The notes under the pieces are model-generated. The model searched no databases. It was not told where the DNA came from and was given only the letters and a program-made list of their open reading frames with translations. From positions 1 through 64,000 of the forward strand of contig JAGWMJ010000001.1 in the NCBI GenBank assembly GCA_028871815.1: a stretch of 64,000 nt of DNA, given 5' to 3'. The stretch's first letter is position 1; each line of letters begins with the position of its first letter. This document shows positions 57,117 to 62,223 of this stretch, piece by piece. A program made the position numbers and the translations under genes. The stretch comes from Armatimonadota bacterium. GTDB lineage: Bacteria; Armatimonadota; Chthonomonadetes; Chthonomonadales; Chthonomonadaceae.

Positions 57117-58298
57117 CTACTCGGGTCCCGTCGACGCCTGCAGCAGCGAACCCTGGTCGTCCGTGAGCCGATCCGATGCCCGGAGCAGCATTCCCGACCC
57201 GGCGATATCGGCCGGACGCAGGAGCATGCCGGGCGCGGTCTGGCGCTCCATTCTCGCTCCAATCGTCTCAATAGTCTCATAGCATTGCCGCAGCAGTTCC
57301 GGCGAGTTTACGACATCCTTATGGCGCACATAGACTCTCAATGCATCCAGGGCGGAAGAATCGCCGACGGCCTGGATCGCCCTCAACAGCGCAGTGCGCT
57401 CCGCTCCCTGCGTGTAGTACAGCACCTTGCACATCATGCCCACTTCACTGCCCGTGAGGCGGCCATAGTACTCATCACCCAGCAGTGGCACAACGCGGGC
57501 GAGGCCCGGAATGGCGGCGCCACGATAGCTTCTTATTGCGGCCATGGCGGCAAGCTGGGGCGCTGTCGCCGGCAGTCGCAGATGCGACAGAGCGGTAATC
57601 TGGTTCCGTGTCCTGATCCGCAGCCTGAAGTCAACCGTGTGCGAGATGCCGTACCAGAGCGGCCATAGCGGGTAGATGAGCGGTACCAGGACTGCGGCAG
57701 CGAGGAAATCAAACAGCCACACGGTCAGCGTCAGCCCAAGCCATACGAGCCATGGCGGCCACGCGCTCAAGGATTTCGGCACGGCTCCAAACATGTGAAC
57801 CAGGGTAACGACATTGCGGTCGCCAACGAGCACACCCGGCGCCAACAGGGTTTTTGTCGTCAACTGAACAACGATTGCCACCAACGCCGCGAAGTTGGTC
57901 GCCCGTGACCACGCCCGGCCAACGGTCCGCGGGACCACCCAGCGGCGCTGCTTTTTGATCGAACCAGATAGCTGCTGGCCGAGCTCTGCGGCGTCGGCGG
58001 CATCGATAGTGCCGGTGGCACAGATCCATACGGCTGTCTTCTGCTGCCAGCGATTGGCGCACTTGCTGAGGAGCGTCCGGCCAACCGTGACCGTCTCCCC
58101 GGGCGCGAGCTGCCTTCCCGTCACTACCGCTTCGGCGATGCGCCTCAGCCGGCTGCGTCTGCGCAGCCATCTCACAAACCTGGGTAACTCAATCGGCACC
58201 GGCTCCGAGCCGTGCCTTGCCACAGGCAACGGAGGCGGCGCTTGCGTCTGAATGGTTGGGGGCGGGTCGACGCGGAGCTTGCGAAGACGCATGTTCAT
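57117..58298 (-). CDS. LLR-tail membrane HEAT protein C
   Basis: A 393-residue protein, third of three neighbouring paralogues. An N-terminal soluble region with HEAT-like helices precedes two membrane segments (TNFAALVAIVVQLTTKTLL; LVWLGLTLTVWLFDFLAAAV). Then comes the family motif IYPLWPLWYGISHTVDFRLR, a HEAT-like region (TALLRAIQAVGDSSALDAL) and an unusual tail with MLLRPAD, MLLRASD and SLLQAST repeats. It overlaps gene B by 4 bases (ATGA) and lies 116 bases before etfB. Function unknown; a membrane-anchored assembly scaffold is a guess. Confidence 0.75.
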   Translation of the reverse strand: MNMRLRKLRVDPPPTIQTQAPPPLPVARHGSEPVPIELPRFVRWLRRRSRLRRIAEAVVTGRQLAPGETVTVGRTLLSKCANRWQQKTAVWICATGTIDAADAAELGQQLSGSIKKQRRWVVPRTVGRAWSRATNFAALVAIVVQLTTKTLLAPGVLVGDRNVVTLVHMFGAVPKSLSAWPPWLVWLGLTLTVWLFDFLAAAVLVPLIYPLWPLWYGISHTVDFRLRIRTRNQITALSHLRLPATAPQLAAMAAIRSYRGAAIPGLARVVPLLGDEYYGRLTGSEVGMMCKVLYYTQGAERTALLRAIQAVGDSSALDALRVYVRHKDVVNSPELLRQCYETIETIGARMERQTAPGMLLRPADIAGSGMLLRASDRLTDDQGSLLQASTGPE

Positions 58299-59218
58299 CG
58301 GCTTACCTTCGCGTCGATGCCAGGCTCAACTCTCGCCGCTCCCAACACGCGCGCCAGCGTCTCTCTATCCGGCGCCGCACTGTCGGACGACCGCAGCAAA
58401 CTCTGCTGCTGCGCTCCCTCCAGCAGGCGCACTTCGATCGCAGCCGCGGCAGCCTTCAACTGCGTCAGCACGGCCGGGTCCAGACAGGCGCGCGCCGAAT
58501 CGGCAAGCTGGCGCAGCACCATAAGCGCATCGGCGCTGCCGACTTCGGCGAGCGCATTGAGCAGCATGGCGGCAAGCTCGGGGTCAGCCCGGCGAACAGC
58601 TCGGGCCATCGCCTCCTGCTCCTGCCATGCATAGCAACCAACTTCCGCGGCTCCAATGAGCGGCAGCGTCCGGCGAAGCGCCTCGCCAGCCGAATCGCGT
58701 AGACCCACCACGCGAAACGCCCTGGCAAGGGCGCCGGCGCTCCGCGGGTCGTGCAGCACACCGAGAGCCTGCACGAGGCTTCGGGCACGAACACGCCGGC
58801 GGCCATCCAGGCGATATGATGCCCAGAGCGCCGCCGGCCAGATCGGAAAGGCCACGAGCAGCACACCGCCGGAGATGCCGGGAATCTCCCACAGAGTCCG
58901 GCGGAGCTGCGCCGATGTGAAGCTGCCGGAGTGGCCAGTTGCGATCAAACTCCCTACCAGTACACAAGCAAGCACAGCGAGACCGAATCGCGCAAAGGCG
59001 CGCAACGCTGCGCGCGAATGCGGTGCGGTCAACTCTATCGACAGAGCGCGAATCAGGCGCACTCGCACCGCATCACGCGCCTCGACATCCAGGTCCGCGT
59101 CACGCAGCCACAGCACGGCGCGACGCCGCACGCGATTGCTGCTGAATCCCCGCAAGAGCGGCTGCAGCGCAGAGTTGCAATCCACGTTCACGTCGCCGTA
59201 TTGCCTCTCGACGCGCAA
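58295..59218 (-). CDS. LLR-tail membrane HEAT protein B
   Basis: A 307-codon paralogue starting at TTG 59218 without a clear ribosome-binding site (GTG 59191 is an alternative). Two membrane segments at about residues 78-97 (GLAVLACVLVGSLIA) and 115-135 (GGVLLVAFPIWPAALWASYR) are followed by the shared motif FPIWPAALWASYRLDGRRRVRAR and HEAT-like helices (DPRSAGALARAFRVVGLRD, PELAAMLLNALAEVGSADAL). The tail is shorter: SLLRSSDS, then TLARVLG. It lies between the other two paralogues and overlaps C by 4 bases. Confidence 0.7.
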   Translation of the reverse strand: MRVERQYGDVNVDCNSALQPLLRGFSSNRVRRRAVLWLRDADLDVEARDAVRVRLIRALSIELTAPHSRAALRAFARFGLAVLACVLVGSLIATGHSGSFTSAQLRRTLWEIPGISGGVLLVAFPIWPAALWASYRLDGRRRVRARSLVQALGVLHDPRSAGALARAFRVVGLRDSAGEALRRTLPLIGAAEVGCYAWQEQEAMARAVRRADPELAAMLLNALAEVGSADALMVLRQLADSARACLDPAVLTQLKAAAAAIEVRLLEGAQQQSLLRSSDSAAPDRETLARVLGAARVEPGIDAKVSR

Positions 59219-59390
59219 TCTCGCCGGGACGTGGCGCGAACTGCCTGAGATTCAGTGTGCATATTGCCGTGATGCAGCATCATTTGTAAGCCGTTCGTCT
59301 GATCAGCGGGACGAACGGGGCCGGCAGCCGGTTTCGCAGAGCGGTGGCTTGCGCGCCGTTCGAGGCAATTCAGTTTGATCGAAATGCCGC

Positions 59391-60497
59391 TCACGTGCCG
59401 TTCTCCGATGGACGCAGCATCTGCTCCGCGACGGCAGAAGTATCCTCCAATGCGGCGCGCAGAAGCGATTCGGCTGGCGGGCCCGGTGTAGCGGCACGCA
59501 GCAGCGTGCGTCTGGCTTCCAACGGCGCCGCGCGGCGTTCGATCTCCTGAATGGCTCTGCGGCAAACGCGGGTGATGTCATCACGCACTGGAGTGCCATC
59601 CGGCCAACGTGAACTGAGTTTGCGCAAGGTGGGCACTACCTGGCTGCTACCAACCCGGCCCACTGCCTGCACCAGTTCGGCAGCATATCGGCGAGGCAAG
59701 ATGTGCACCACGCGAAGCAGCGCGAAAAGGTCCTCGGCGGTCACCGATGTGGCGACATCCTCGGTCAACAGAGCCAAAGATGCAGCGACGCCGCCTACGG
59801 CTACGGGGCGCAGCATCGCTGACGGAATCAGCCGGGCGCATACGCAGCTGGCTGCGGGCGCGCCAAGGTTCGTCAGAGCCCTCACGCGGTACCCAACCCT
59901 CCGCCTCCGGGGCGCGTCCATCCTGGCCGAAATTCCCAGGAACAGCGGCCACAACGGAAAAGCCACTATGGTAGTCGCGAGGGCAACAACCGCAGCAACC
60001 CCAAGTATGCGAAGTACTGCCAAAAGGATGCCATCATTGAGGCTGACAGGCCCGGCGACAAGTTGCCAGCTCGCGACTACAGGGAAGGCGACGGCCAACG
60101 TTCGAACCCAGGCCCGCACGCCGGCGCGGACGCGCCACTCAACCATCTCCGCCTTGAGCGAACTGGAGATCGCGGATGCCAGTCGCTCCCGCTCGGACGG
60201 CGCGGTATCCAACATGCGACACAGCAGCGCCGCAGCCTCCACATCGGCGCCGCGCCGCGCGTTCACCAGCGCACGGATGAGCGGAGAGATGTCCGGTAGC
60301 CGGCACACCCCGTTTTCAGCGGCGTCGACTGCCAGTGGGCGCAGCGACCTCCGATCGCCAATACGGGGGACCAAAGCGGCGAGACGCGCACACGCCCCGG
60401 CAGCGGTTTCGCCTTGAGTGAACTCTGCAGCCGCGATCGCCGCGGCGCCAAAGTCGCGCTGCTGGGCCCTTTCACCCGCCATCTTGAAGCTGAACAT
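59391..60497 (-). CDS. LLR-tail membrane HEAT protein A
   Basis: The first gene of the three-gene family, about 368 residues from ATG 60497 (start uncertain; the frame is open to 60650 and 60482 is another ATG). HEAT-like helices (LIRALVNARRGADVEAAALL) precede two membrane segments (WVRTLAVAFPVVASWQLVAG; LRILGVAAVVALATTIVAFP). The motif FPLWPLFLGISARMDAPRRR and further helices (LFALLRVVHILPRRYAAELV, STQVVPTLRKL-type) follow, then a tail with three repeats: TLLRAAT, SLLRAAL, QMLRPSE. It is divergent from glcD. Function unknown. Confidence 0.7.
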   Translation of the reverse strand: MFSFKMAGERAQQRDFGAAAIAAAEFTQGETAAGACARLAALVPRIGDRRSLRPLAVDAAENGVCRLPDISPLIRALVNARRGADVEAAALLCRMLDTAPSERERLASAISSSLKAEMVEWRVRAGVRAWVRTLAVAFPVVASWQLVAGPVSLNDGILLAVLRILGVAAVVALATTIVAFPLWPLFLGISARMDAPRRRRVGYRVRALTNLGAPAASCVCARLIPSAMLRPVAVGGVAASLALLTEDVATSVTAEDLFALLRVVHILPRRYAAELVQAVGRVGSSQVVPTLRKLSSRWPDGTPVRDDITRVCRRAIQEIERRAAPLEARRTLLRAATPGPPAESLLRAALEDTSAVAEQMLRPSENGT

Positions 60498-60596
60498 GCG
60501 CTTGACCGAAACGGTTGGTACCCAATTCGAGCGCTGCACCGACTGCGTCTTGCCGGCGTTACGCAGCGTAGCTGCCAAACCACAGCCACTGTATCG

Positions 60597-60604
60597 ATTA
60601 TACT
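60597..60604. promoter_or_regulatory. Overlapping divergent -10 boxes between gene A and glcD
   Basis: On the plus strand TATACT occupies 60599-60604; on the minus strand the same region reads TATAAT (60602-60597). The boxes are suited to divergent promoters for glcD and for the LLR-tail gene A. No good -35 partner was found on either strand, so this is tentative. Confidence 0.3.
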
Positions 60605-60744
60605 GCGCCGGCGGCCTGGGGCAGCGATTCACAAGGGCTGGCATCCGCACACGAGCGCCGCCAGCCGGCGCCTGCCTGCGCCGTGCGGTACACTCTCACG
60701 GCCTCACCCCACGCGATCCATTATCAGCGTCCGCACCAAGCAGC

Positions 60745-62223
60745 ATGGCTAACGTAACCGACAGTACGCAACCATCCTCCGTCGTCGCTTTGCGACAGGA
60801 GCTCCGGTGCCTACTCGGAGATCGGGCGGTGCTCATCGACGAGGCATCGATGCGCGCGTACGATTGTGATGCGTACGGGCCGGAAAAGATGTCTCCCGAC
60901 GCCGTGGCGCTCCCTCACAGTACCGACCAGGTAGCCGCCATTGTCCGCCTCTGCAACCAGTTCAACGTTCCATTTACACCGCGCGGCGCCGGTACGGGCC
61001 TCTCCGGCGGCGCCACCGCCATCGAGGGCGGCGTTGTGATTTCCACCGTCCGGCTGAACGCGATTCTTGAAGTCGATATCGAAAACCGCCGCCTGAGGGC
61101 ACAAGCGGGCTGCGTCAACACCTGGCTCACAAAGGCGGTGAAGTCGCAAGGATTCCACTATGCGCCGGACCCATCCAGCCAGGGCGCCTGCACGGTAGGC
61201 GGAAATGTGGCCGAGAACTCCGGCGGCCCACATACCCTGAAATATGGTGTGACCACCAATCACGTCACCGGTGTGGTGATGGTGCTGCCCGATGGTGAGG
61301 TGGTTGAGTTGGGCGGCAAGGCGGAAGATTCGCCGGGCTTCGACCTGGTTGGCCTCGTTGTCGGAGCGGAGGGCACTACCGGCATCGTGACCGAGGTGAC
61401 GGTGCGGCTCACACCCTTGCCGCAGGCGGTGCGTACGCTGCTTGCGATTTACGAGGACCCGGCCGGCGCGACGCAAACGGTCTCCGAACTCATCGCAGCG
61501 GGAGTTCTGCCTGCAGCTCTCGAGATGATTGATACCTTTATTATCCGGGCCTGCGAGGAGGCGTTCCACCTCGGGTTTCCTCTGGATGCTCAGGCTGTTC
61601 TGATCATCGAAGTAGACGGGTTGGAGGCGGGGCTGGATGCCGAAGCGGAGCGCGCGGCCGATGTCGCCCGCCGTAACGGCGCCCGCGAGGTTCGCCACGC
61701 GGCCTCGGAACTGGACCGTGCACGTCTGTGGAAGGCCAGGAAGCAGTCATTCGGCGCGCTGGGGCGCCTGGGCTTAAGTATGGTGACGCACGATGGTGTG
61801 ATTCCACGTACACGCTTGCCGGAGGTGCTGCTGCAAGTGCGCGCCATCGCGGAACGCCACGGACTGCAGGTCGGAAACGTTTTCCACGCCGGCGACGGCA
61901 ACCTGCATCCAAACCTGATGTATGACGAGCGGGACCCGGCGCAAGTGGCGGCCGTGGTGAAAGCCGGGCACGAAATCCTTCGCCTTTGTGTTGATGCGGG
62001 TGGCTCGCTCACAGGCGAGCACGGCATTGGCGTAGAGAAGATGGACGCGATGCCGTGGATGTTTACCGACGACGACCTGAGCCTGATGCACGCCATAAAG
62101 GCCGCGTTCGGCACCAGTGATTTGTGCAATCCCGGCAAGGTGCTGCCCGAAGCAAAGCGCTGCTGGGAGACGGCGCACGGACCCCGGCTGGTACGGGGCG
62201 CGGCGCGCGGCGCGGCCGTTTAG
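60745..62223 (+). CDS. glcD: FAD-linked oxidase GlcD-type (glycolate/D-lactate dehydrogenase subunit)
   Basis: A 492-residue flavoprotein of the PCMH type that oxidises 2-hydroxy acids. The FAD-binding loop is PRGAGTGLSGGATAIEGG, with GGNVAENSGGPHTLKYGVTT and VVGAEGTTGIVTEVTVRLTP. The C-terminal catalytic domain has QVGNVFHAGDGNLHPN and GGSLTGEHGIGVEKM, with the conserved His residues. The start at 60745 begins a normal family N-terminus; the frame is open upstream but lacks a match. It faces the etf cluster divergently, and could feed electrons through EtfAB-EtfD. Confidence 0.92.
   Translation: MANVTDSTQPSSVVALRQELRCLLGDRAVLIDEASMRAYDCDAYGPEKMSPDAVALPHSTDQVAAIVRLCNQFNVPFTPRGAGTGLSGGATAIEGGVVISTVRLNAILEVDIENRRLRAQAGCVNTWLTKAVKSQGFHYAPDPSSQGACTVGGNVAENSGGPHTLKYGVTTNHVTGVVMVLPDGEVVELGGKAEDSPGFDLVGLVVGAEGTTGIVTEVTVRLTPLPQAVRTLLAIYEDPAGATQTVSELIAAGVLPAALEMIDTFIIRACEEAFHLGFPLDAQAVLIIEVDGLEAGLDAEAERAADVARRNGAREVRHAASELDRARLWKARKQSFGALGRLGLSMVTHDGVIPRTRLPEVLLQVRAIAERHGLQVGNVFHAGDGNLHPNLMYDERDPAQVAAVVKAGHEILRLCVDAGGSLTGEHGIGVEKMDAMPWMFTDDDLSLMHAIKAAFGTSDLCNPGKVLPEAKRCWETAHGPRLVRGAARGAAV

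Follow-up and report, generated by a model that had tools for sequence, protein, structure and literature searches.

HEAT-repeat proteins, as represented by the HEAT_2 (PF13646) and HEAT_PBS (PF03130) profiles and by CpcE/CpcF and alphaRep, have a body of helical repeats, and short disordered peptides that are read by a hub are familiar from the tails of SSB and FtsZ and from encapsulin cargo peptides. Portable docking tags are well established in eukaryotes, whereas bacterial examples have been described less often, and the F-box proteins exemplify an adaptor family in which a variable client domain is joined to a constant docking part. Here, we describe three neighbouring genes, A, B and C, of an Armatimonadota bacterium, located in a window of 64,000 nucleotides (the whole stretch of DNA analysed, positions 1 to 64,000 of contig JAGWMJ010000001.1, assembly GCA_028871815.1). 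Their products resemble HEAT-repeat proteins in having a HEAT-like helical body, but we know of no described HEAT-repeat protein with a membrane hairpin inserted in its body or with a triple LLR tail. Whereas the SSB, FtsZ and cargo peptides use other motifs and usually lie at the very end of the chain, the LLR tail carries three sites in a fixed register and may be internal. The family recalls the F-box proteins in its many paralogues per genome, diverged repeat domains and one constant segment, but the two share no sequence and the constant part is here a disordered tag. Docking tags are already known as a kind; what is new is the joining of a HEAT body and membrane hairpin to a portable triple tag. 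The combination of hairpin and portable triple tag was found in none of Pfam, NCBIfam, PADLOC and the PDB beyond matches at the level of HEAT repeats, no PDB chain matched the tail profile, and literature searches combining the motif with HEAT repeats or with Chthonomonas yielded no relevant paper. We favour, with moderate confidence, the reading that A, B and C are membrane adaptors of an unnamed family and that their tail is a portable docking tag, offering three sites in fixed register to a putative common partner.

The three genes are listed with their features in Table 1. The open reading frames and the 4-base overlap of B and C reported in a first-pass annotation of the window are both present, as is the placement upstream of etf genes that it described, with etfB, etfA and a gene for an Fe-S protein following downstream on the same strand. 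Upstream, in divergent orientation, lies a gene for a GlcD-like FAD oxidase. A, B and C score below the cut-off of every Pfam and NCBIfam family, which agrees with the annotation's proposal of a paralogous membrane/HEAT family lacking a named counterpart, and the family profile described below matches all three in their own genome (A 5.0e-72, B 5.0e-64, C 1.0e-87). By body profile and triple tail, they belong to a new TM-HEAT/LLR-tail family in which A and C carry three sites and B one; since B keeps a single site, not every member can depend on the complete triple tag.

Table 1. Features of genes A, B and C in the window, and sigma factor operons at other loci that encode related proteins.
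Feature	Coordinates	Strand	Description	Basis
Gene A	60497-59391	-	368 aa from ATG; helical N-region, membrane hairpin, HEAT-like region, three-site tail	ORF and translation
A membrane hairpin region	59919..60101	-	residues 133-193, including FPLWPLFLGISARMD	hydropathy
A tail site 1	59490..59504	-	LLRAA	
A tail site 2	59451..59465	-	LLRAA, 13 residues on	
A tail site 3	59406..59420	-	MLRPS, 15 residues on	
Gene B	59218-58295	-	307 aa from TTG, start uncertain; body as in A; degenerate tail with one motif	ORF
B membrane hairpin region	58820..58996	-	residues 75-133	hydropathy
B tail	58385..58399	-	one site, LLRSS; rest degenerate	
Gene C	58298-57117	-	393 aa	ORF; AlphaFold mean pLDDT 81.6
C membrane segment 1	57825..57893	-	about residues 136-158	hydropathy; AlphaFold helix 100-152
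C membrane segment 2	57675..57755	-	residues 182-208, then arginine-rich stretch	hydropathy; AlphaFold helix 182-208
C C-terminal HEAT-like helical domain	57237..57668	-	residues 211-354	AlphaFold helices, pLDDT mostly >90; fold search gives HEAT/ARM repeats
C tail site 1	57210..57224	-	LLRPA	
C tail site 2	57174..57188	-	LLRAS, 12 residues on	
C tail site 3	57132..57146	-	LLQAS, 14 residues on	tail pLDDT <50
ECF sigma / membrane protein / double TM-HEAT LLR-tail operon	L115:2971-6821; L119:1702-7028; L121:14039-17680; L141:5897-9388			

Judged by profile matches and predicted fold, the body is a HEAT protein. The HEAT-like helices proposed in the first-pass annotation are borne out by Pfam HEAT_2 (PF13646) matches in 15 of 23 homologues (best 5.4e-10) and by matches of a profile (A3) to alphaRep and CpcE/CpcF structures, but A, B and C themselves stay below the threshold of the Pfam HEAT profiles. 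AlphaFold predicts a confident, all-helical body both for C, with long paired helices, and for a relative from Chthonomonas calidirosea (mean pLDDT 82.1). A fold search returned a list filled with HEAT/ARM chains of ARM, alphaRep and karyopherin type (best Z 9.6, which is weak for helical repeats; rmsd 6.0 over 181 aligned) and no solved relative closer than such generic repeats. Five members match NCBIfam models of the CpcE/CpcF phycobilin lyases (best 1.9e-4) and four of the 23 weakly match PADLOC anti-phage models (best 1.8e-5, WGR_XIII), C matching neither; the former probably reflect the shared HEAT repeat and the latter likely arise through HEAT repeats as well. Another proposed hallmark, a shared family motif ('FPLWP'), is local to A, B and C, and only its proline reaches a majority in the wider family.

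Two hydrophobic segments are evident in the hydropathy profile of each protein, as had been claimed, the second being weak in A and B. An arginine-rich stretch after the second segment in all three suggests, by the positive-inside rule, that the C-terminal HEAT domain and the tail face the cytoplasm. Anchoring, which the first-pass annotation also considered for the tail, is better attributed to the membrane hairpin.

Every tail motif quoted for A, B and C by the first-pass annotation occurs in the translations, and the tail is predicted to be disordered in both AlphaFold models, of C and of the C. calidirosea relative (pLDDT <50). Across 450 sampled ORFs of the source genome, LLR[PA] appears 15 times in about 137,000 interior residues, a rate of about 1e-4 per residue, so that by our own arithmetic two or more copies in one 45-residue tail would be an event of about 1e-5 per protein. 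This motif frequency, together with the spacing and the conservation in the family, rules out a chance origin of the tail motifs.

That conservation, which the earlier annotation had proposed examining in orthologues, holds across the family. With C as the sole query and no use made of the tail model, 61 related genomes were searched; 22 of them, all from the same family or order, contained relatives, and the source genome yielded B, A and a fourth copy at another place. The ORFs read from these matches end in three LLR motifs with few exceptions. In an alignment of 23 members with 16-23% identity to C, the only invariant columns are one glycine, one arginine and the leucine and arginine of tail sites 1 and 2, while site 3 is conserved to more than 90%, so that most of the invariant columns are tail positions. 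The profile built from this alignment scores strongly across the order and more weakly across the phylum.

Taken together, the loci read comprise 156 distinct bodies that extend to the end of the body model, and strict [LVM][LVM]R motifs occur three times in 119 of these, twice in 9, once in 7 and not at all in 21, the tail-bearing fraction being inflated because part of the loci were fetched with the tail model itself. No homologue has more than three. Sites 1 and 2 are 13 or 14 residues apart in 105 of 118 proteins, and sites 2 and 3 are 15 residues apart in 96 of 118. Most of the 21 bodies without motifs belong to homologues in other families of the phylum; in a few, further HEAT helices follow an internal tail. 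The LLR triplets are written in 101 different codon combinations, and only 15 of 310 within-protein pairs share their codons; because the codons differ between copies, the constraint acts at the protein level, and a repeat maintained at the DNA or RNA level is ruled out.

Tandem copies are frequent: beside the three in the window, three more lie near C1:593-596 kb of the source genome, and another genome carries eight family genes in a row (L034:4584-13951, G028:C52) and at least two dozen copies altogether. This frequency, and the similarity of some neighbouring copies, would be expected if the repeats had no binding role and persisted merely through gene conversion or recent duplication, but that explanation is contradicted by the varied codons and the tagging of unrelated proteins, and with the LLR invariant at about 20% body identity we consider it very improbable. 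The source genome also encodes a degenerate protein of 271 aa (L355:8297-9112; G000:C1, about 296-297 kb) with membrane segments and the tail-like motifs MLRPG and LLRAS, which the tail profile missed.

Most occurrences of the family are in a single order of bacteria from soil and hot springs, and Chthonomonadales-type Armatimonadota have about 10 to 40 members with tails in each genome. At E <= 0.001, the tail profile matches 26 of 31 genomes of the same order (source genome counted) and, in the rest of the phylum, 3 of 220; relaxing the threshold to E up to 1 raises the count in the order to 28 of 31. Tail and spacing are shared by two more distant families (f40 and f43), in which the motif is sometimes LMRAP, and relatives in two others (f14 and f15) have only the body. 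About 85,000 species genomes were scanned with a DNA pattern that catches only about a quarter of the tails, giving at least 119 loci; among the matches listed, the in-frame tails with E below 1e-5 all come from Chthonomonadales-type records and the remainder is chance or low complexity, which does not prove that tails are absent elsewhere. The tail is nearly restricted to one bacterial lineage.

Three genomes of the order that lack the family (G017, G020 and G025) have no convincing tail either, and this co-absence would be explained if the receptor were the family itself, the HEAT groove binding the LLR tails of other members or its own, in a homotypic membrane network or as autoinhibition. 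HEAT and ARM folds commonly receive extended peptides, the fold matches here are of ARM, alphaRep and karyopherin type, and there are many paralogues per genome. In the single-chain models, however, the tail stays below 50 pLDDT and shows no sign of docking on its own body, and other families of the phylum include related HEAT bodies that lack tails, so that the body does not require tails. We regard this main rival as unlikely, although it is the strongest of those considered.

The docking-tag reading gains from the finding that the tail is portable to unrelated bodies. The first-pass annotation had asked whether LLR tails occur on other proteins of the same genome, and they do. Ten of 108 tail ORFs read lack the family body; these include one Spo0M-domain protein, three HEAT-FGE proteins, a soluble HEAT protein of about 660 aa and very short proteins with a single membrane segment, and the source genome encodes a similar soluble HEAT protein of 694 aa. 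Tagging is sporadic for Spo0M, with one tagged case in ten Spo0M-bearing genomes. It is regular in a small family with the core WR..VPGGWL..FYPDP.H.W, which is widespread in the phylum, matches no Pfam family and is represented in the source genome at G000:C4:31519-31824 (L109:7517-7936). Close orthologues within the lineage end in one or two LLR[PA] motifs in 10 of 10 cases, compared with 0 of 21 homologues from other orders and 0 of 4 distant paralogues in tagged genomes (Fisher's exact 2e-8, or 5e-6 with paralogues counted in the lineage; the sequences are related and not independent, and the values serve as a guide only).

In the HEAT-FGE proteins, the tail sits in the middle of the chain. 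Proteins of this HEAT - LLR tail - FGE-sulfatase (C-type lectin fold) layout occur in several copies (L136:4587-6023, L137:2453-3796, L138:205-1602), and a diversity-generating retroelement could act on their variable C-terminal ends. Internal tails mean that a free C-terminus is not required, and a C-terminus-dependent signal is unlikely. A proteome-wide C-terminal tag was also rejected, since LLR[PA] is not clearly enriched at C-termini outside the known carriers.

A disordered, short and portable tail near the C-terminus of most carriers could instead mark its carriers for degradation or quality control through a protease adaptor, so that they share a regulated turnover. This is improbable in our estimation: the tail is also kept internally, ahead of an FGE or an extra HEAT domain, and three sites in fixed register exceed the needs of a degron. 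Portable short repeats on different bodies also resemble peptides that load cargo into a protein shell such as an encapsulin, but most carriers are membrane proteins and encapsulin (PF04454) is above its cut-off in 0 of 31 genomes, the source genome included. With the shell gene absent from these genomes, the version with a type 1 encapsulin of this family is largely refuted, and a cargo-loading role in general is very improbable.

Neighbouring genes vary among the loci, and no recurring neighbour was found that could be a universal partner. In a subfamily with two TM-HEAT units and a tail, the gene is part of a conserved operon, where it follows those for an ECF sigma factor and for a single-pass membrane protein whose C-terminal part is pilin-like (genomes G005, G029, G026 and G008; Table 1), and at further loci this membrane protein adjoins the tagged protein. 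The sigma factor operons hint at membrane signalling, at least for the double TM-HEAT branch. The link to etf genes in the window was not seen in the other loci read. A GlcD-like FAD oxidase gene is divergent from a family gene in three genomes (window 60418-62223, L042:3772-5361 and L026:14-628), and this recurrent pairing is suggestive only.

A short, disordered and invariant motif on unrelated bodies is best explained by docking to one partner, in line with the first-pass annotation, which had suggested that the tail repeats bind a partner, and we accordingly outline how such adaptors might work. The two-helix hairpin would anchor the protein in the membrane and place both the N-terminal and the C-terminal HEAT-like domain in the cytoplasm, while the disordered tail would present three short docking motifs, about x-L-L-R-[PA]-[AS], at fixed spacings of 13-14 and 15 residues. 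Clients would be selected by the varied HEAT domains, and the tail, as the constant link, would bring different bodies to one common putative partner. Exactly three sites in a nearly fixed register suggest matching pockets in the receptor over loose avidity, and the partner would most likely be a rigid or multivalent receptor with such pockets.

An invariant, fixed-register triple tag across diverged paralogues and unrelated proteins implies a central hub, of which we found no description. The tail peptide, being short and ready for use as bait, allows a direct search for the hub, and Chthonomonas calidirosea has been cultured. More tentatively, Chthonomonadales and a few relatives may use a lineage-specific three-site LLR[PA] tag as a general docking code, in which one putative receptor with three fixed pockets would gather many membrane HEAT adaptors and several unrelated proteins into a membrane regulatory scaffold partly wired to ECF sigma factors.
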